Shown here in pieces: positions 1 through 9,772 of a DNA stretch of 64,000 nt (its first letter is position 1; the number at the start of each line of letters is the position of its first letter). The position numbers and the translations under genes are program-made. The notes below the pieces were generated by a model that was given only the letters and a program-made list of their open reading frames with translations, ran no database searches and was not told the origin of the DNA. The stretch is taken from the NCBI GenBank assembly GCA_027490955.1, contig JAIXXB010000014.1:1-64000 (forward strand), read 5' to 3'. Origin of the DNA: Rhodobacter sp. Its GTDB lineage: Bacteria; Pseudomonadota; Alphaproteobacteria; Rhodobacterales; Rhodobacteraceae.

Positions 1-188
1 CCCCTTGGCGCAGCGTTAACAGTTTCTGGCGATTCCTTGGTGTAGGTCAGGCGAAGCACATCTAGGCCATCAGGCATGTAGACCAAATGGTAGACCACAA
101 CGAGCCTACTTGTCATGAACTGGCTATCATAGTATCCAATAAAAACAGGGTGTTACGTTTTGAGTGGAGCCTAGGTGAGGATACAGCA
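1..188. other. Window edge, no gene recognised
   Basis: No open frame of convincing length or start is visible here. The stretch is moderately AT-rich like the mobile region to its right and ends exactly where the 98-bp inverted repeat begins. It probably belongs to the outer integrated element that runs off the left edge. Confidence 0.5.
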
Positions 189-286
189 CCCTTCACCCGC
201 TCCATTTAACTACAAAAAACAAGCAAGAACTTCGGTTAACTGTTTGAAAACACTCTGAAATTCACTGAGGCTTCACCGCCTCTCTT
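189..286 (+). repeat. Left arm of a perfect 98-bp inverted repeat flanking the integrase gene
   Basis: Read on the plus strand, this arm equals the reverse complement of 1458-1555 without a mismatch. Its first 16 bases (189-204) match the 3' end of tRNA-Gly, including the CCA. The rest continues through the 3' end of the integrase gene, covering its stop codon and last seven codons. The two arms enclose 1,171 bp. Confidence 0.93.
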
Positions 287-1440
287 AACCACCTTTCCAA
301 TACTTCGATAGGATACCCGTTTCCGTACGATTGTCCTATGCCGCCTGTTGTCCAGCCACCTATTTGATCGACAACATCAGAAGGGCACTCGACGGCACGT
401 AAGCGGTCACGCATGGAATGCCGAAAGCTATGCAGGGTGCTGTCCTCGCCAATATACGGCCGCAACCACTTGTTGATGATTGCACTGGCAGAGTTCGAAT
501 TTGTCACCTTACCTTTGTTGTATCGGGGGAAGGCAAAGCCATCTGAATTGGTGGTTGAAATAATGCGCTGTGCTGCCCAAAGGGAATGTCCAACCAAGGG
601 CAATGTCCGCTGGGAGCTCTCGGTTTTTAAACTACGCCAAGAGTGGGGGCGCACATGAACTAAAGGAATTTTTCCTGTTAGATCAAAGTCATCTTGCCGC
701 AAACCCGCAGCTTCTGCCAACCGCATCCCTGTGTCTGAGATCAATGCAATCAGCCAGCGAATCTCGTCATCTTCAATCCGACACAGTTCTTGCACCTTGG
801 CGATTTCAGCCACTGTTATAGCTTGCCGTTTTTTGACCCCAGCTTTCTTATCAAGGTAAAGACCAGAGAATGGATTGGTCACGGCCAATGCAAACTCTTG
901 GATATTGAAATTGAAAATGGCTGTCAGACAATTCAGCAATCGCCCCACACTTGATCCAACCAAACCTTTTTTGGTCAGGCTATCCCTGAACGCTATGGCA
1001 TCTGCGCGTGAATAACGACCAAGCGGCTGATCACCTGCAACATCAATCAAATAGCCACACGCACGGCGAGATACGTTGAAGAACACTTTGGATTTATCTT
1101 TGCCCTTATGGCGAAAGTATTGCTCTAAAGACTCGGACAGCTTTGGCCCATTATCATGGTCAGTTACTTGAGATCCCTTTATGTCGTTTGTTCCAACAGG
1201 GGACTTTAGTCGATGAACGCCTGGTAGGTTCGGGTTGGCCACACGCAGCTGGTGCCAGTATTCCTCAAGCTTGGCCGCTGCCATCAAGGATCGTAGTTTG
1301 GCCACTGATGGGGATTTGGTCCGCAAGCCCTCAACGATTCGATCAGTCTCATAGTAGTGCAAAAGATCATTGGGGATGCGCCGTGTGAAGTAAAAGAAGC
1401 CGCGACGACTGTACGTGAATGGGACTCTTTTGGTCTGCAA
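262..1440 (-). CDS. Tyrosine recombinase (phage-type integrase), outer element
   Basis: A 392-residue site-specific tyrosine recombinase, expected to integrate and excise an element at tRNA-Gly. The catalytic domain shows Arg240 in DTGMRLAEAAGL, the box LHSFRH with His337 and Arg340, Trp363 in GGW, and the nucleophile Tyr372 in QSYGNGY. The N-terminal half (about 1-200) is the arm-binding and core-binding region. The start is a TTG at 1440 with a GGAG ribosome site 11 bases upstream; no other start precedes residue 53. The gene lies between two arms of a 98-bp inverted repeat, and its last seven codons and stop lie inside the left arm, so inversion would regenerate the same protein. It is a divergent relative of the integrase at 6617-7714. 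Confidence 0.9.
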   Translation of the reverse strand: MQTKRVPFTYSRRGFFYFTRRIPNDLLHYYETDRIVEGLRTKSPSVAKLRSLMAAAKLEEYWHQLRVANPNLPGVHRLKSPVGTNDIKGSQVTDHDNGPKLSESLEQYFRHKGKDKSKVFFNVSRRACGYLIDVAGDQPLGRYSRADAIAFRDSLTKKGLVGSSVGRLLNCLTAIFNFNIQEFALAVTNPFSGLYLDKKAGVKKRQAITVAEIAKVQELCRIEDDEIRWLIALISDTGMRLAEAAGLRQDDFDLTGKIPLVHVRPHSWRSLKTESSQRTLPLVGHSLWAAQRIISTTNSDGFAFPRYNKGKVTNSNSASAIINKWLRPYIGEDSTLHSFRHSMRDRLRAVECPSDVVDQIGGWTTGGIGQSYGNGYPIEVLERWLREAVKPQ

Positions 1441-1457
1441 TTTGGTCTACACTCCTG

Positions 1458-1555
1458 AAGAGAGGCGGTGAAGCCTCAGTGAATTTCAGAGTGTTTTCAA
1501 ACAGTTAACCGAAGTTCTTGCTTGTTTTTTGTAGTTAAATGGAGCGGGTGAAGGG
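1458..1555 (-). repeat. Right arm of the perfect 98-bp inverted repeat
   Basis: This is the reverse complement of 189-286. It starts one base beyond the integrase's Shine-Dalgarno region and overlaps the tRNA-Gly fragment by 16 bases (1540-1555). It therefore holds a second, oppositely oriented copy of the integrase's last seven codons and stop, upstream of the gene. Confidence 0.93.
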
Positions 1556-1600
1556 AATCGAACCCTCGTATTCAGCTTGGGAAGCTGCTGCTCTACCATT
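1540..1600 (-). repeat. Displaced 3' part of tRNA-Gly: attachment-site copy
   Basis: These 61 bases are identical to 7771-7831, the 3' portion of the intact tRNA-Gly from the D-loop through the anticodon loop to CCA. The first 13 bases of the tRNA are absent, so this copy cannot make a tRNA. Together with the intact copy it forms the direct repeat expected of attL/attR after integration into a tRNA gene. Confidence 0.9.
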
Positions 1601-2260
1601 CCGCCCATTCTCGTTATTGATAATAATATCAACAACTTGAAGAACTCTCCGCACTTGCCAGTGCTGAGCTACATTTATCTATTTCTCGCATGTGCCAGTA
1701 TCAAATCAGCAAATGTATGACAAGATGTGTGACAGGTAAATCGTAGTTTTTGGACAGCCACTCGACTAGTGTCAATATCGCTGTTTGCTCGGAATCACGC
1801 CCGTACCGCCATCTCGTGGTTCTGCAACGTGCTTGTCTCGCCTAGTGATCAGCTGCTAATGAACATGGAAACCTGCTTGTTCTGCTGTCTCTCCGTAAGT
1901 ACCAATAAATGTTTAGATACAGGGACTGAGACACTGCCCACCACACACGGTTACTAAACACGCTAGCCACACTGCTAAAAGTGAAATATGGGCGCGTTCT
2001 ATATGGACGGTTCTAGCCTGCTATCGTTAGTTGTGTTTTATTTGTTGTCAAACCGTATAGGCTGTCGTATAGTAGGAGCAAAATTAGGCACGCTAAGTTA
2101 AGGTTCGATCAAAAAAGAAGCTGTAGTGCGATGTTGCATTGACGTCCTCTGACAAAGCCGACAAACTCATTCGGTCGATCTAACAAAAAGACTAAAATAA
2201 AAAAACTGCGAACCAACTCAGTGAATTATATCACTTGGTCTATCGATGGAGAAAATTTAA
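1601..2260. other. 660-bp AT-rich stretch without a recognisable gene
   Basis: Only short frames without plausible starts occur; a 62-codon plus-strand frame at 1769-1957 has no ribosome site and no recognisable features. A short palindrome TTGAT-N6-ATCAA lies near 1617-1632, close to the attachment site, where an excisionase or integrase could bind. The 3' part probably holds the promoter of the next gene, whose likely ribosome site (GGAG) lies near 2248. Confidence 0.4.
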
Positions 2261-2941
2261 ATGCCAAATGACTTGAAAAATAAGGTAATCAAATTCGTTT
2301 TAATATTCCCTGCGTTTTTGACATTAGTCATAGTAGGACCAGCACTCTCGCAGGACTTGTCTAGGGAAAAGAGTGGAGTAACATTTAATTTTAGCAAGAG
2401 CAGTCTCAATTCTACATATTCGATTACTGGAATCGGAAGTGTTGATTTAAATGTTGATGGGTATTTGGTCGGTACAAGTTTTGATCTATCAAACGAAATA
2501 TCGTTGGGAATTGGATATTTTAAAGGACGCGGTGCGCTTTCATTCTTTGATTATCAAGGAGAAGGGCAATTTATATCAATTAATTACAATGTACTTAATA
2601 ACTTGGACTTGCACAATGGCCATGGAATGAAGACATCAATTGGCTTCCGACATGTCAATACCAGTATAGATATTTTAGTGGGTGGAGCTTCGGTGCAATT
2701 TTCCGATAGTACTGATTTAATAGAAGCTCAGACAGAGGTGGCAATTACAAAAGACATTTCAGTTTCGGCATCAGTTGTAGGAGATATTTCAAACTTTAAT
2801 CCATCTTATGGGATTGGACTAAATATTGGTATTATAGATTCTGGATATTTAAACGTTGGATACAGTACCGCAAGCGATTCAATACAAGGCCTCTCTATTG
2901 AATCAACTGCTTTTTTGATTGGCTATAAATTGAAATTCTAG
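2261..2941 (+). CDS. Exported beta-barrel-like protein of unknown function
   Basis: A 226-residue protein. The N-terminus has lysines followed by a hydrophobic stretch and ALSQ (residues about 8-31), a standard Sec signal peptide with cleavage expected after ALS or ALSQ. The mature part is a run of alternating polar and hydrophobic strands rich in Gly, Ser and Asn, and it ends in YKLKF with a terminal Phe, as in outer-membrane barrels handled by the Bam machinery. About eight to ten strands would fit. I do not recognise a family. The gene is strongly AT-rich and stands alone between intergenic stretches, which fits accessory cargo such as a surface or superinfection factor, but that role is a guess. 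Confidence 0.65.
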   Translation: MPNDLKNKVIKFVLIFPAFLTLVIVGPALSQDLSREKSGVTFNFSKSSLNSTYSITGIGSVDLNVDGYLVGTSFDLSNEISLGIGYFKGRGALSFFDYQGEGQFISINYNVLNNLDLHNGHGMKTSIGFRHVNTSIDILVGGASVQFSDSTDLIEAQTEVAITKDISVSASVVGDISNFNPSYGIGLNIGIIDSGYLNVGYSTASDSIQGLSIESTAFLIGYKLKF

Positions 2942-3227
2942 AGTTCGCGAGCGTTGGCAATGCCAAGGGTATGCGATTATTGTGGTGCAATTGGATTTTA
3001 AAGCGCCACATTAGCTTCTTCAGTATGTTGCACCCTCTCAGTTGAGCATTTGCGACCATGCGTTCTGCCTTGGCCAGCAGGGACTTTTCCTCCTCTATAC
3101 CTCTACCCTACCTCCCTCTTGAAGTGCTTTATATAATAATAGTAGCTAAATTTTACTATGGTCTCTAACTGTATTTAGCAAGAAAAGAGGCAAGATTGAT
3201 AGTAAAGAGGAGGAAAGTATCCAAAAC
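2942..3227. other. Intergenic stretch between convergent genes
   Basis: About 290 bases separate the 3' ends of the barrel gene and the polymerase-like gene. A small hairpin TTGGC-AAT-GCCAA (about 2954-2966) follows the barrel gene but has no T-run. I see no gene and no clear terminator. Confidence 0.4.
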
Positions 3228-4622
3228 CTAGAAGTCTTCTAATACATCAAAATCATCAGTTAGATTGACTGTCTGAGTTCTTGGTTTTGAGTTTGTTGCT
3301 CCTATCAGTGGCGGTATTATTTTTGTAGGTAAGTCTGAATAGCTGACATCCATCATAATTGTTGTTCCTAGTTTGTCAATCATTGAACTTTGGATTGCCT
3401 TTACGACAACTTCCTCATCTGTTCGCTTGCACATTAGGCAATCATGGATTGGGTAAGTTACTATACCTATGCTGATTAACTCTGACATGGCCTTAATCAT
3501 GATCTCACTCTCAATAAACATTAAGTCATAACTGGTATCTGTGACCATTTTCAAGAAAGGGAAAGTGTTGAGGATGTCGTCAAAGTAGTCTTCAGCTTTT
3601 GCGTCCTTTAGTAAGTTAAATTGCTCACGAACTGACAGAATTTGGTTGTTATTCTCAGGGTCTTTCTTTGAACCTTTCGGAAAACGATCAACCTTGTTCC
3701 CATTGGACAGATAAGTCGACAACAACAGTTTTGCTAGCTTTCTCATACTTGCCTGTCGATCAGGATCATTTACTGTGCCAACAAACTCGATCATCGTGTA
3801 TGGGTCTTCAGTGAAGGGAATCCCAATCCCAAACTGTGCGTTGCAGATATTTAAGAACATTGCCTTTACGTCGATTTCACACACTGCCTCTCCATCTATT
3901 AAAAGGTTCAGTCGTTCAGTTTCCGGTAGTGTTTGCCACCTGCCATAAAGCCGCCCTCCAGATTTCAAACTTCCCTGATTAAATATACGTTTACAAATGC
4001 CCATTGTCTGACCCTCTAGGGTTTGGAGTGGCTGTTGCATCATACCTTTTCTTATGTCGTCAACTTGGCTCTCGAGTTCTTCAATGTGAGGCAAGAACCC
4101 CTTGCGCGACATCTTTTGACCACCAATGATCTTTGCTCCGTTCCTGATCTTCGGACTGCGAACTTCAACAGAGGGGCCAATGCCATGAGGCTTAAACTTG
4201 AGGCCGTGCATCCAAACTGTTTCAAATACGCTGTAAACCTGAGCAAGACCGTCTCGCTTGGAGGATTTCTGTGCTAGGTTCAACAATGCATGTTGCGCAA
4301 GTGACTGTTTAATTGTTCTAGCTATACCAGCCCCGTAAACCGCTCTAGTGAAATGATCACTGCTTGAGGGCCAACAAATCAGTCCGTTTGATGCAGATTT
4401 CACAGCCATAACATAATCGGACAGACATCTGATCATCTTTAACTCTGTGGTTGGTCGATCTGGGTTAAAGCCAAGGCTTAGTAAAGTTTCTTTTAATGTG
4501 TTGTAGGTTTCGTCATCGCTTGGCTCGAACTGAATCCAAACTTCTGAGCTTGCTCTTTTTAATGTTCCAAATTGGTTGCTCTCAAATGTGTAGTTGCGGT
4601 CTACTATACTGCCGTCAGCCAT
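3228..4622 (-). CDS. Polymerase-palm-like protein, candidate replication protein of the element
   Basis: A 464-residue protein I cannot assign to a named family. Its C-terminal half resembles a phage and plasmid protein group that begins with an RIFNQGS and GGRLYG box (about 212-228). Three signatures recall single-subunit (family A-like) polymerase palms: EID at 249-251 in a GEAVCEIDVKAMF context (motif A-like), RKLAK at 294-298 (like the O-helix R-x3-K), and PIHDCL with His393-Asp394 (motif C-like), preceded by FIESEIMIKAM. The N-terminal 200 residues match nothing I recognise. The start is the ATG at 4622 with AAAGGA six bases upstream, not the GTG at 4652. A hairpin leader precedes it. 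A replication or primer-synthesis role is inferred from these motifs and the absence of any other replication gene. Confidence 0.55.
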   Translation of the reverse strand: MADGSIVDRNYTFESNQFGTLKRASSEVWIQFEPSDDETYNTLKETLLSLGFNPDRPTTELKMIRCLSDYVMAVKSASNGLICWPSSSDHFTRAVYGAGIARTIKQSLAQHALLNLAQKSSKRDGLAQVYSVFETVWMHGLKFKPHGIGPSVEVRSPKIRNGAKIIGGQKMSRKGFLPHIEELESQVDDIRKGMMQQPLQTLEGQTMGICKRIFNQGSLKSGGRLYGRWQTLPETERLNLLIDGEAVCEIDVKAMFLNICNAQFGIGIPFTEDPYTMIEFVGTVNDPDRQASMRKLAKLLLSTYLSNGNKVDRFPKGSKKDPENNNQILSVREQFNLLKDAKAEDYFDDILNTFPFLKMVTDTSYDLMFIESEIMIKAMSELISIGIVTYPIHDCLMCKRTDEEVVVKAIQSSMIDKLGTTIMMDVSYSDLPTKIIPPLIGATNSKPRTQTVNLTDDFDVLEDF

Positions 4623-4657
4623 TTTGTTCCTTTCTAAGTTTTCGGAAAGCACAACGC

Positions 4658-4714
4658 AAAAAAGCCCCCAAAAGGGGATAAGCTACGAATAAAACGTAGG
4701 GAGCCGCTCTGCGG
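4658..4714 (-). promoter_or_regulatory. Three-hairpin leader ending in an intrinsic terminator, upstream of the polymerase-like gene
   Basis: Read on the minus strand: CCGC-AGA-GCGG (4704-4714), CTACG-N7-CGTAG (4683-4699), then CCCC-TTTT-GGGG (4666-4677) followed by GC and six Ts. The last is a rho-independent terminator 35 bases upstream of the start codon, and no minus-strand gene lies close upstream whose transcript it would end. It therefore looks like an attenuator or a short counter-transcript RNA region, as used to set expression of plasmid replication proteins. Confidence 0.55.
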
Positions 4715-5134
4715 TTATTTACTAAGAAGATATTTATAGTGAGGCGGAGGTAGACAATTCCAATAAACCTTCTCAATCAAGAAAAGGGTCAATTTTTGTG
4801 GCCACCCTTAGGACTTGTCGGAGTTTCATACGAATATTCCAACATTGTATTAGTTAAGCAGTGTTTTTCATTTTGCAAGGCATAAAGGCAAATAAATTTC
4901 TGCAATTTGATTCTACATTTTGTGTTGCTGCTAAGGTCGTTATCTATATTTAGCAAACACTGTTATGTTCCACTGAAACACATGACTTATCTCGAATCGA
5001 GATCGCAGTTGGTACGACTTCTTTAAGTTGGCTTGTCATCTTTTCATTCTTTCTAGCAGTCGCCTTAGTTCAGATGACTAAAAGTATCGCTTACATTTAC
5101 CCCCTTGCGCATGATATATACATCGAGTCCAACG
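4715..5134. other. AT-rich intergenic region with palindrome, possible origin or recombinase site
   Basis: No gene is visible. A 15-bp palindrome ATCTCGA-A-TCGAGAT occupies 4989-5003, and CAGTGTT/AACACTG segments lie in inverted orientation around 4860 and 4955. The region sits between divergent genes for the replication candidate and the serine recombinase, so it is a natural place for an origin, a resolution site or both promoters. Confidence 0.4.
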
Positions 5135-5163
5135 TTGAATAAATATAAATTCGCTGTTATGTT
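5135..5163 (+). promoter_or_regulatory. Sigma-70-type promoter of the serine recombinase gene
   Basis: TTGAAT (5135-5140), a 17-bp spacer and TATGTT (5158-5163). Transcription would begin near 5170, which leaves room for the ribosome site AGAAGGA (5173-5179) before ATG 5187 and argues against the TTG at 5166 as start. Confidence 0.5.
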
Positions 5164-5186
5164 GGTTGCAGCAGAAGGAATCAGCC

Positions 5187-5867
5187 ATGAAACAGTTCGT
5201 CGTCTACACCCGCGTAAGTACCCGCCGTCAGGGGGATAGTGGTCTTGGTCTAGATGCCCAGCGCCGTGACATTCAAATCTACCTGTCTACGTATGCAGAG
5301 GTGCCATTTGAGGTTCTGGGTGAGTTTCAAGACATCGACTCGGGTCGAGATGGAAGCACATTTGGGGGTGTTGCGGATAAAGAGGGAAGGCCTGAGTTTT
5401 GGAAGGCCATTGAACTGGCAGAGAAGACAGGTGCCACGCTGTTGGTTGCCAAGCTGGACCGCATTAGCCGCGACGTCGAGACTGTTGCACATCTACTTAA
5501 ACGTAAGCGCCTGAGCCTGACTGTAGCCTCCATGCCTCACGCGGATAAGTTCCAGCTTCACATCTATGCAGCACTTGCAGAACAGGAACGTGAGTTCATC
5601 AGCCTGAGGACCAAGGCAGCACTTGCACCTTTGAAGGGTACAGGGAAGCTGGGTGGGAACCGTGCCAACATCGACAAGGCCAATGAAGCTGCAAGAGCTA
5701 TGGCTGATACTCATGCGCAGAAGGTCATGGATACTGTGTTGCCATTGAAGGAATCTGGCAGGACGCTGCAACAAATAGCCGATACCCTAAACAGGACGGG
5801 TGTAACGACAGCTAGGGGTGGCAAGTGGTATCCCACGACAGTAAAGAATGTTCTGTTGCGTCAGTAA
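5187..5867 (+). CDS. Serine recombinase (resolvase/invertase family)
   Basis: A 226-residue site-specific serine recombinase. The N-terminal catalytic domain begins with VVYTRVST, in which Ser11 is the nucleophile, and continues with DIDSGRDG and VAKLDRISRD (the conserved Arg-rich active-site segment). The dimerisation helix around AALAEQEREFISLRTKAAL leads into a C-terminal helix-turn-helix (about 175-225, LQQIADTLNRTGVTTARGGKWYPTTVKNVL). Domain order and length fit small resolvases rather than large integrases. The start is the ATG at 5187 with AGAAGGA upstream. In this element it could resolve dimers or invert DNA; the palindrome at 4989-5003 and the inverted repeat at 189-286/1458-1555 are possible substrates, though neither link is shown. 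Confidence 0.88.
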   Translation: MKQFVVYTRVSTRRQGDSGLGLDAQRRDIQIYLSTYAEVPFEVLGEFQDIDSGRDGSTFGGVADKEGRPEFWKAIELAEKTGATLLVAKLDRISRDVETVAHLLKRKRLSLTVASMPHADKFQLHIYAALAEQEREFISLRTKAALAPLKGTGKLGGNRANIDKANEAARAMADTHAQKVMDTVLPLKESGRTLQQIADTLNRTGVTTARGGKWYPTTVKNVLLRQ

Positions 5868-6017
5868 AACAACATCTGGGTGGGACCCCTATTTTCTAGC
5901 AAACAGATTTCATCCTTTCGGGTTCACCCCTCAGAACCCAAGGAAAAAAATTACTTTTGACACTAAAAATAAAACGAACTGCTTTGCAATGAAGTGGTGG
6001 ATAAGTAAATGCAGATG

Positions 6018-6512
6018 CTAGGTTATTTGCTCCTCTACAATAACTGCTGTGCCAGATGCTATTAACATTATCATAGATCCAACATTACTTAGTTCAACAT
6101 AGTCTAGATCGACGCCAATGACTGCGTTAGCACCCACAAGATGAGCTTCCCGTTTCAATTCATACAAAGCGGTTTTCCTAGCATCGCGCATTGTCTTTTG
6201 CACAGCTTCAGACCTGCCACCAACTATGTCTCTAACCCCAGCAAACAGGTCTTTGAAGATATTCATACCAAACGCACATTCGGCTGTGACTATCTCAATC
6301 CTCTTTATGATGTTCAAACTAGAGGCAGTTTCTGTTGTCAGAACGATGGCTTCAATCTCAGCGCTACGCGTCTCCTCATTTAATCGTGCTTGTTCGCGGT
6401 TAGCTTCTCGTGAGGCCATATGATCTGCGTGTATGCAGTCCACACATTTGTCACCCGCTCCGCTGTAGTTGAAGAAACCTAGTTTTTTTCCACATTTTAC
6501 ACAATCAGCCAT
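6018..6512 (-). CDS. YbjQ/UPF0145-like protein with N-terminal zinc-binding-like Cys pairs
   Basis: A 164-residue protein. Residues 1-27 hold two CxxC pairs (Cys4/Cys7 and Cys23/Cys26), typical of a small zinc ribbon. A charged helical linker follows (about 30-52). The C-terminal part (about 55-162) matches the heavy-metal-binding-like YbjQ domain: VGGRSEAVQKTMRDARKTALYELKREAHLVGANAVIGVDLDY, then a strand pair ending VIVEEQ. The YbjQ family forms pentamers and its function is not established. AAAGGA stands nine bases upstream of the ATG. It is cargo of the tRNA-Gly element between the two recombinase genes. Confidence 0.75.
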   Translation of the reverse strand: MADCVKCGKKLGFFNYSGAGDKCVDCIHADHMASREANREQARLNEETRSAEIEAIVLTTETASSLNIIKRIEIVTAECAFGMNIFKDLFAGVRDIVGGRSEAVQKTMRDARKTALYELKREAHLVGANAVIGVDLDYVELSNVGSMIMLIASGTAVIVEEQIT

Positions 6513-6616
6513 TCATTATCCTTTCGATTTAAATGCCGCCAAGCATACTTTGGAGTGATTTTTCAATTTGTTCAGTTTTCTCTAGCGTTCGCGCTCCCAA
6601 CTTCACATGCCCAGTG

Positions 6617-7714
6617 CTACGTGCATATCGCAATTCGGCTTAACCAAGTAGCCTTTTGTGATAGGTCATAGCCGCTGCCATACCTGCTCCCAGAACCCCC
6701 TACGGAACTCCAGCCACCTAAGGCATCCAAGAGTTCTAATGGGCATTCTACGGCCCTTAGGCGGTCCCTGAAGGCGTGTCTGAGGCAATGGGCTGTCTTG
6801 CCTTCAAAGTGCTGTTTCATCCATTTGTTTAGGGTGTTTCCAGCATGTGTGGCAAGGATACTATTTTCTCTTAGGTATTCGGGAAAAAGGTAGTCAGAGG
6901 CACTGTTTTTAACCAAAAGTTGCATAGCAACTCTGGCCAGTCCTACCAGCGGCAGTGTTCTGGTCGAGCAGGGAGTTTTGAGCCGTCTAGCTGGATGGGC
7001 TACTATGTTTATCGAATGACAATCCTCAGAAATGTCGCTCAAGCGAAGACCAATAATCTCGGCAATCCTGCACCCTGTTTCACCCAAGATAGGCACCGCC
7101 ATCCTGAGCCTTTTGCCTGAGGTCATCGCAGCTTCGTATAGCTCTGCCAGTTCGTCAGTTTCGAAAGGAATACGTTTTGACGCATCGATCCCTTCTTTGG
7201 CAATCCGAACTTGCGAAAATGGGTTTTGACCAGAAAAATCGTATTCAGAATAGGCATAGTTAAAGACCGCTGTCAGGCAATTTAGTCGCCGCCTAATCGA
7301 TGTAGTTTTGTTGTACTGCGAAAGCATAAATGACACGAAATTTCGAGCATCCTGCCGAAGATAGGCATCAACCGCAATGTCACCTGACAACCCTGTTAAC
7401 ATTCTGACAGAACTTATGGTTGGATTTTCTTGTATCCCCTTCAATGCCACATATTCATCTGCAATTTCTGACAGTTTTCTGGGTCTGGTGTTTGTTGCTC
7501 CCAAAAGAGAGAGCAAGTTAACAGGCGCACCTACGTCCTCTTGCTGCCAAATTGCATCAAGTCTTTGTGTCAGAACGTCCGCACTTGCCTGGTCGTCCAG
7601 CCTGATACGGATCGTCTTGCCGTATGAAACTTGCGCGTGAGCAGGAACTCTTCTGTTGTAATACAGGTTTCCATCGCGTCTGACTGTGTGCTTTTGTTGT
7701 CCACATGTGTGCAT
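6617..7714 (-). CDS. Tyrosine recombinase (integrase) of the tRNA-Gly element
   Basis: A 365-residue integrase with the full catalytic set: Arg in ETGCRIAEIIGL, His-x-x-Arg in HCLRHAFRDRLRAVECP, GGW, and the tyrosine nucleophile in SRYGSGY near the C-terminus. The N-terminal segment RRDGNLYYNRRVP is the usual arm-binding start. I chose ATG 7714, which has GAGG nine bases upstream, over ATG 7753, which has no ribosome site. The gene begins 56 bases from the reconstituted tRNA-Gly and reads into the element. It is related to, but clearly diverged from, the integrase at 262-1440; both share the RDRLRAVECP box. Confidence 0.92.
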   Translation of the reverse strand: MHTCGQQKHTVRRDGNLYYNRRVPAHAQVSYGKTIRIRLDDQASADVLTQRLDAIWQQEDVGAPVNLLSLLGATNTRPRKLSEIADEYVALKGIQENPTISSVRMLTGLSGDIAVDAYLRQDARNFVSFMLSQYNKTTSIRRRLNCLTAVFNYAYSEYDFSGQNPFSQVRIAKEGIDASKRIPFETDELAELYEAAMTSGKRLRMAVPILGETGCRIAEIIGLRLSDISEDCHSINIVAHPARRLKTPCSTRTLPLVGLARVAMQLLVKNSASDYLFPEYLRENSILATHAGNTLNKWMKQHFEGKTAHCLRHAFRDRLRAVECPLELLDALGGWSSVGGSGSRYGSGYDLSQKATWLSRIAICT

Positions 7715-7770
7715 ATTTTTACGCCTCAATTTGCCTAAGCCATTGAGAAACATAAGAAATGCAGGGAAAG

Positions 7771-7844
7771 TGGAGCGGGTGAAGGGAATCGAACCCTCGT
7801 ATTCAGCTTGGGAAGCTGCTGCTCTACCATTGAGCTACACCCGC
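7771..7844 (-). tRNA. tRNA-Gly (anticodon CCC), integration target
   Basis: A full cloverleaf with encoded CCA: acceptor GCGGGTG paired with CACCCGC, D-arm GCTC/GAGC, anticodon loop TTCCCAA giving CCC, and a T-arm with TTCGATT. The anticodon stem has a G-A mismatch at its outer pair. Bases 7771-7831 are duplicated at 1540-1600, so the 3' part of this functional tRNA was probably supplied by the integrated element. Confidence 0.95.
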
Positions 7845-9233: not shown

Positions 9234-9772
9234 TGGGCCATGCAGTCTTTCAAAGAGATCAGGCCGCGTCGCAGCCATGTTCGCATCGTATTCAACGGCA
9301 CATTGGCGGCAAGCGCAAGATCGCTGTAAGACTGGCCCGACAGATAGGCCCCGCGCAGGGCGGTGGCCACGGCAGGGTCAAGCCTGCCGAGACAATGATC
9401 AATGCGCGCCGCCTCGCCGCGGGCAATCAGTTGCACTTCGGCGCGCGGGGCTGGGTCTGCGGCAGCGGCCAGTTCATCCTCGTCGCCCAAATGCGCAGGC
9501 TTGCGCGCGCGGATCAGATCAATCGCGTGATTGCGCGCCAGTGCCACGGCCCAAGCCATGGCTTGGCCCCGTTCTGGGCTGAACCGCGCCGCGCGCAGCC
9601 AAATTCTGGTGAAAACCTCTTGCAATGCGTCCTCTGCCTCGGCCCTTGTGCCAAGGATACGGATCAGCAGGCCAAAAAGTTTCGGTGCGGTGGCAGAATA
9701 AAATTCGCCAAAGGCTGCGCGGTCTTGGGCGGCGATACGGGTAAGCAGGGCGGAGAGATGTTCATCTTGCAT
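9230..9772 (-). CDS. ECF-family RNA polymerase sigma factor
   Basis: A 180-residue extracytoplasmic-function sigma factor. Region 2 spans about 20-90 (AFGEFYSATAPKLFGLLIRILGTRAEAEDALQEVFTRIW, then ALARNHAIDLIR), and region 4 about 120-175 (LRGAYLSGQSYSDLALAANVPLNTMRTWLRRGLISLK) forms the helix-turn-helix that reads the -35 element. There is no long N-terminal extension. With the RskA-like gene directly downstream it forms a SigK/RskA-type pair released by proteolysis or a redox signal. The fasciclin gene is its likely target. Confidence 0.92.
   Translation of the reverse strand: MQDEHLSALLTRIAAQDRAAFGEFYSATAPKLFGLLIRILGTRAEAEDALQEVFTRIWLRAARFSPERGQAMAWAVALARNHAIDLIRARKPAHLGDEDELAAAADPAPRAEVQLIARGEAARIDHCLGRLDPAVATALRGAYLSGQSYSDLALAANVPLNTMRTWLRRGLISLKDCMAQ

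Follow-up and report, generated by a model that had tools for sequence, protein, structure and literature searches.

A tRNA-associated integrase cassette of Rhodobacter sp. as one half of a proposed two-part integrative element that carries an inverted attachment site in its interior

The integrase cassette and its surroundings

The stretch of DNA analysed in this work, which we call the window, comprises 64,000 nucleotides and corresponds to bases 1-64000 of contig C10 of a Rhodobacter sp. genome (G000; 2.96 Mb, 42 contigs). Near its left end lies an integrase gene with a TTG start (262-1440, minus strand), whose product of 392 aa matched DUF6538 (E 2.6e-16) and Phage_integrase PF00589 (E 3.7e-13) in Pfam. 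The gene is enclosed by two repeat arms, 189-286 on the left (Q') and 1458-1555 on the right (Q), which are 100% complementary over 98 nt and separated by 1,171 nt; by our own estimate (~64000^2/2 x 4^-98), a chance origin of such a match within 64 kb is out of question. The same 16 nt, CCCTTCACCCGCTCCA, occupy positions 189-204 (plus strand) and 1540-1555 (minus strand) and match exactly the 3'-terminal 16 nt of the intact tRNA-Gly(CCC) gene at 7771-7844, and the left arm also holds the stop and the last seven codons of the integrase ORF (int). The arms, the tRNA-Gly end within them and the last codons of the integrase had been described in an initial annotation made from the letters alone, which also took the tRNA end as the core and expected the protein to be unaltered by inversion, and all of these features were borne out.

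The core at 1540-1555 is the direct, attL-like copy on the tRNA side, and that at 189-204 is an internal, inverted one. The former belongs to a truncated tRNA-Gly copy in which the element sits (1540-1600, minus strand) and of which ~60 bp of the 3' part are left: positions 1537-1600 are 98% identical to 7768-7831, and ARAGORN found no tRNA gene at 1540-1600. This truncated copy may be read as the distal end of a neighbouring element A (1609-7770), an ordinary-looking element whose own conventional integrase (6617-7753) adjoins the intact tRNA-Gly, and which also encodes a recombinase of the serine resolvase type (5166-5867), a protein resembling YbjQ (6018-6512) and one of 474 aa that matched phrog_4756 but nothing in Pfam.

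On the other side of the cassette, positions 1-188 (plus strand) have the anatomy seen in complete elements for the P' arm, that is, the putative attachment arm on the outer side of the inverted internal site, with which a cargo segment starts. Since C10 starts at window base 1, the outer side is lost 188 bp from the repeat. The sequence 1-210 recurs at 98% identity at C17:89096-89305, close to the end of that contig (89,532 nt long), where the P arm is followed by the core CCCTTCACCCGCTCCA and then by the 3' end of a chromosomal gene in convergent orientation. In another genome of the same genus (locus L128) the site is empty, and an intact tRNA-Gly is directly followed by the counterpart of this flanking gene (protein match of 88%). 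As C17 carries P arm, core and chromosome, and L128 joins both flanks, we take C10 and C17 to be the two flanks of a single insertion, with the P' arm of the window probably present again, inverted, at the far end of the element. Shortly past the P arm, at 9307-9533 of locus L016 (G000:C17), an apparent 3' end of an IS5-type transposase was noticed by reading, perhaps the reason why contig C17 ends there.

Most of the P arms displayed have two tandem short motifs ~110 bp from the core, such as CCGTAGACCAAACCGTAGACCA, and the window shows a similar pair, GTAGACCAAATGGTAGACCA, at 78-97 (plus strand). On the Q side, two motif copies occur at the integrase start, and in the window these (GTAGACCAAATTGCAGACCA, 1431-1450, minus strand) overlap the start of the gene and lie outside the repeat. 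In several elements the variants on the P and Q sides agree: GTAGTACA in L058 and L082, GTAGAACA in L059, GTGGTATCC in L143, GAAACA in L044, and CTGACCA in L007 and L064. We infer that the motifs are arm-type binding sites of the integrase (Int). Judged likewise from sequence, the element ends may be read as attL (tRNA-core-Q) and attR (P-core-chromosome), and the inner junction P-core-Q' as a near-complete attP, inverted within the element. The Q' arm of the window stops short of the arm-type sites, so that its internal site may be a poor substrate; in many other loci Q' includes one of the two.

Repeats around related integrases

A search of related genomes, named beforehand as a check of the initial annotation, found the same arrangement. 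Among the first relatives, repeats of 82-123 nt at 98-100% identity surrounded the integrase in five of seven. Integrase matches were obtained in 35 of 394 genomes of a family sample (E up to 1e-40), in 20 of 390 of an order sample (E up to 1e-90) and in 10 of 385 of a class sample (E up to 1e-45), counting the window's own genome; genus-level searches gave one further locus (L192), the plasmid search one record, IMG/VR a single contig reaching 199 bp beyond the matched integrase, and the phage search no match. The window and the loci derived from these searches form a set of 72, from which duplicates (L039-L041, L047, L085 and L093) and the integrase-less L092 were excluded; the more distant matches L045, L046 and L048-L054, with no repeat and ~1.5 kb of flank, also stand outside it.

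By a rule of 50 nt at 85% identity, 56 of the 72 loci have the repeat around the integrase. Its length ranges from 59 to 265 nt (median 87), and the arms are identical in 34 of the 56 and at least 95% identical in 50. The 16 loci without it include contigs that end early (e.g., L005, L006, L087 and L185), integrases whose frame is broken or truncated (L042, L043 and L094-L096) and seemingly decayed loci (L065, L070 and L072), and sub-threshold repeats were seen in L005 (23 nt), L042 (39 nt), L065 (88 nt at 77%) and L087 (27 nt). The 46 repeat-bearing loci with an annotated tRNA represent 16 tRNA types, as told by their anticodons. The inverted core is at most two mismatches away from the last 16 nt of the locus' own tRNA in 43. 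The family element in L189 lies at a tRNA predicted as a selenocysteine tRNA.

No repeat was found at any of 49 other tyrosine-recombinase loci from eight of these genomes. These controls are ~50 stretches from 75 PF00589 places, the family integrases being counted in the 75; they include probable Xer-type recombinases, 30 have only ~1.5 kb of flank, the integrase was taken as lying mid-stretch, and L143, a family member with a perfect repeat of 81 nt, was removed to give 49. In the integrase tree, all 53 repeat-bearing integrases included belong to a single group with 63 members (support 98/92), and the seven more distant integrases have no repeat; the tree is midpoint-rooted, three repeat-bearing rows with short frames were omitted from it, and the placement of long branches is unsure.

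The near-identity of the arms had been taken in the initial annotation as a sign of recent origin, a claim that does not agree with an arrangement common to a clade of 63 integrases, nor with the way in which the arms evolve in concert. The Q arms of the window and of L001 are each 100% identical within the element and 77.7% between the two elements, and those of L064 and L066 are 100% identical within and 93.4% between, with eight differences that are all common to both arms of each element and none discordant. The arms were more alike within than between elements in all ten pairs compared (for L061/L062, offset by an indel, by aligned identity), and the P arms described below behave similarly, with 100% in L058 and 99.96% in L192 within the element and 86.5% between. 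This likeness therefore reflects homogenisation and not youth.

Some loci of the family have further peculiarities. L181 (G930) has a family integrase at tRNA-Phe; the usual Q repeat is absent, but downstream lie two different inverted repeats, both perfect, of 383 and 931 nt, and the element is perhaps rearranged or nested. In L074 (9334-14247), the integrase segment holds, by reading, an HtpG-like ORF of 617 aa between the integrase and the distal Q' arm, and extra ORFs also occur within the integrase segments of L002, L067, L071 and L073. Within G046:C1 427600-467000, the family elements L067 and L152, located at tRNA-Thr and tRNA-Leu, face opposite directions ~27 kb apart, and their integrase regions are 79% alike, a site where a large chromosomal inversion could occur.

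The cargo segment and the orientation of both segments

The larger half of the structure lay outside the view of the initial annotation: a second inverted repeat closes a cargo segment, and this cargo is found both ways round. The complete layout is tRNA / core-Q-int-Q'-(core, inverted)-P'-cargo-P-core / chromosome, in which the cargo-closing repeat spans from the inner, inverted core to a third, direct core. Both repeats were found in 14 elements, 13 by one rule, with P repeats of 197-3,183 bp, plus L007 (~420 bp, 88%). The 13 are L058 (3,183 bp, 100%), L064 (767 bp, 98.3%), L066 (729 bp, 95.3%), L076, which is the Ruegeria sp. TM1040 megaplasmid NC_008043.1 (1,148 bp, 100%), L077 (1,259 bp, 99.8%), L079 (588 bp, 99.8%), L081 (2,265 bp, 100%), L152 (686 bp, 97.8%), L174 (197 bp, 100%), L176 (394 bp, 99.0%), L182 (304 bp, 99.7%), L183 (291 bp, 99.7%) and L192 (2,316 bp, 99.96%). 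The third core has at most two mismatches in 16 in 11 of these 13 (L007 being outside the count), among them TM1040 and three elements of one finished genome; in the other two, the contig ends at the core position (L192) or the core, as we placed it, has five mismatches (L183). In TM1040, the identical BRO-family gene WP_011537156.1 occurs twice (L076 15487-16062 and 25831-26406), because both copies are within the P repeat.

At least 7.5 kb are available past the inner core in 22 repeat-bearing loci, with the second repeat in 13 and none in 9. The contig ends at most 800 bp past the inner core in 25 of the 56 loci, and such frequent breaks of draft contigs are expected if a near-identical second copy exists. 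In genome G332, the gene that we call P-linked lies close to the ends of two contigs.

The cargo itself is mixed. Type I restriction genes are present in L076 (annotated), L079, L081 and L192, and L182 has proteins matching MzaB, MzaC and MzaE next to a cytosine methylase. By ORF reading, the three elements of G046 hold TPR proteins, and copper/laccase-like, transport and other genes occur elsewhere. A P-loop protein of 633-655 aa sits at the P edge in L058, L076, L079, L081 and L192; its L076 copy had no match in PHROG, NCBIfam or PADLOC and no Pfam match above the family cut-off, and its L081 copy no Pfam match. A primase-like protein of L152 matched phrog_16950 (E 4e-23) and has homologues 89-91% identical in L064 and L066. 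Outside the G046 trio no such gene was recognised, so that replication of a circular form is uncertain. The cargo of the window's own element is missing from the assembly, and the window's genome gave no match to a 269-aa part of the L064 TPR protein nor to the P-linked protein profile A1.

The two segments differ in their orientation. By one T-loop rule applied to both sides, a tRNA or T-loop adjoins the arm upstream of int in 53 of the 56 repeat-bearing loci and the other arm in none of the 55 testable ones. Every integrated copy open to this judgement thus has int directed away from the tRNA, as seen in assemblies, which show the major form and would hide a minor flipped fraction. In ordinary tRNA islands int likewise starts beside the attachment site, so that its fixed direction alone is not special.

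For the cargo, the one clear case of flipping is that of G046, a genome of one contig whose three elements L064, L066 and L152 have cargo 87-90% identical. When L064 is compared with L066, the cargo aligns on opposite strands (5,089 bp at 89.6%), and the first 2,156 bp, int included, on the same strand. The cargo of L064 is also opposite to that of L152 (5,054 bp at 89.3%), and L066 and L152 agree in strand (4,951 bp at 87.7%). The cargo segment therefore flips relative to int, as observed between sister elements and not within a clone. The P-linked gene is close to the inner core in L079, L066 and L152; L076 and L064 have it near the far end, and L058, L081 and L192 carry a copy at each end. 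Its position was considered as a second sign of flipping and rejected, as L079 and L076 keep a fragment at the opposite end; one-sided copies can come from erosion of a copy, and only the G046 trio was used.

Proposed recombination and relation to known systems

We hypothesize, with a probability of about 0.6, that this cassette forms the int-bearing part of an integrative element that consists of two segments, inserts at tRNA 3' ends, possesses an internal inverted attP and isomerises in a manner like that of the 2-micron circle. Int would excise the element by attL x attR recombination, leaving a circle in which both junctions are P-core-Q, i.e. two attP, oppositely oriented as are the two FRT sites in the 2-micron circle of yeast. 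If these attP recombined, possibly through Int itself, the cargo would be flipped relative to int. Only one of them, which lies at the int start and has both arm-type sites of the Q side, would serve for re-integration, so that int would always point away from the tRNA with the cargo either way round, and gene conversion through the inverted repeats would keep arms and cores alike. The same final picture would also arise if Int or RecA flipped the cargo in place, by recombining the inner site with the far one.

Among the other explanations, the one that survives best accepts the same architecture and leaves the flipping and homogenisation of the P repeats to ordinary RecA recombination, the inverted attP having some other role, e.g. 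to titrate Int, to position it or to silence the int promoter. Most of the P repeats reach a length at which RecA can act, the internal site of the window has no arm-type sites on its Q' side, and int was never found flipped. However, the Q arms (median ~87 bp) are short for RecA and yet are also kept alike, the outer repeat boundaries coincide with the core, and the arrangement is retained over the whole clade; we regard this explanation as possible, if unlikely.

A cassette that inverts itself and thereby switches integrase expression while integrated, as proposed in the initial annotation, would account for identical arms with cores at their outer ends and for a protein that stays intact after inversion. 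An invertible expression cassette is expected in both orientations, about half of the copies being flipped if it switches freely, but none of the 55 testable loci is in the flipped state, as far as assemblies, which give the major form only, can tell. The switch is thus very improbable, and any effect on expression would be hypothetical; what stands of this first reading is the enclosed integrase, its core and the reality of the feature. It is still harder to credit that the repeats serve mainly to let a single strand fold back in a transfer or replication intermediate, making the core sites double-stranded, with recombination as a secondary role: both segments are indeed closed by inverted repeats, but no transfer or rolling-circle gene was noticed on reading the ORF lists. 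Finally, an artefact of assembly or amplification (the hairpin that the initial annotation had named as the main alternative) or a chance relic of duplication has a negligible probability even though the window's contig ends 188 bp outside the repeat, since the same layout occurs in independent finished, single-contig genomes and in the TM1040 megaplasmid record, is conserved across the clade and is absent from the control loci.

The proposed two-segment element has much in common with the islands that tyrosine integrases insert at tRNA genes: a phage-type integrase beside a tRNA, a direct core equal to the tRNA 3' end at both ends, an empty site in a relative, and mixed cargo including defence genes, all of which were found here. 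Such islands are known with attL and attR only, whereas a third, internal and inverted attP-like site is present here, together with two segments each closed by homogenised inverted repeats. The yeast 2-micron circle has two recombination sites in opposite orientation, and shares with the present element its own tyrosine recombinase (Flp, acting on FRT) and opposed sites that split a circle, inferred in our case, into two segments. Opposed cores, an own recombinase and both relative orientations of the segments (L064 versus L066 and L152, as sister elements) were found in the present family; unlike the 2-micron circle, its elements integrate at tRNA genes and have attP-like sites with putative arm-type sites. 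The genome of herpes simplex virus also has two unique segments, each with its own flanking inverted repeat, that give segment isomers, and a short shared sequence with direct orientation at the two termini and inverted orientation at the joint between the segments, but its DNA and enzymes are unrelated, and the int segment described here was seen in one orientation only.

In yeast, inversion of a replication fork by Flp is thought to drive 2-micron amplification (PMC3737535). A bolder reading would see a class-wide bacterial counterpart of the 2-micron circle, in which the element's own integrase flips a replicating circle with two attP, amplifies it, and integrates it at tRNA genes with phage-defence or other cargo either way round, a reading that we hold as rather doubtful.

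Strand-biased circularizing elements (SE), GInt, RIT and Tn554 are integrative and moved by tyrosine recombinases, with terminal inverted repeats of 34 bp in RIT and imperfect ones of 13-19 bp in SE (PMC10214605). These elements have two or three recombinase-fold genes, in contrast to the single integrase, tRNA target, long homogenised repeats and third core of the present family. In L058, L076, L077, L079 and L081, PF00589 (E up to 1e-10) was matched at int only, in a search that missed some family integrases of G046, and in the other elements no second recombinase-fold gene was seen in the ORF lists. Tycheposons are tRNA-bordered cargo elements with a tyrosine recombinase, for which the consulted text of PMC10872708, a paper later than their original description, mentions no internal inverted attachment site. 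A literature search over open-licence PMC papers, with subscription papers and bioRxiv outside its scope, found no such element described, and mobile DNA made of two segments with homogenised inverted repeats and an internal inverted attP is seemingly undescribed.

The family thus represents a whole clade of tRNA-targeting integrases that keeps an extra, inverted attachment site absent from the standard attL/attR picture, a design that was probably overlooked because draft assemblies break at the inner core. It offers a concrete test system for the upkeep of likeness between inverted repeats and for 2-micron-like recombination in bacteria, and also for the movement of phage-defence genes between tRNA sites, with type I restriction in four elements and Mza-like genes in one.
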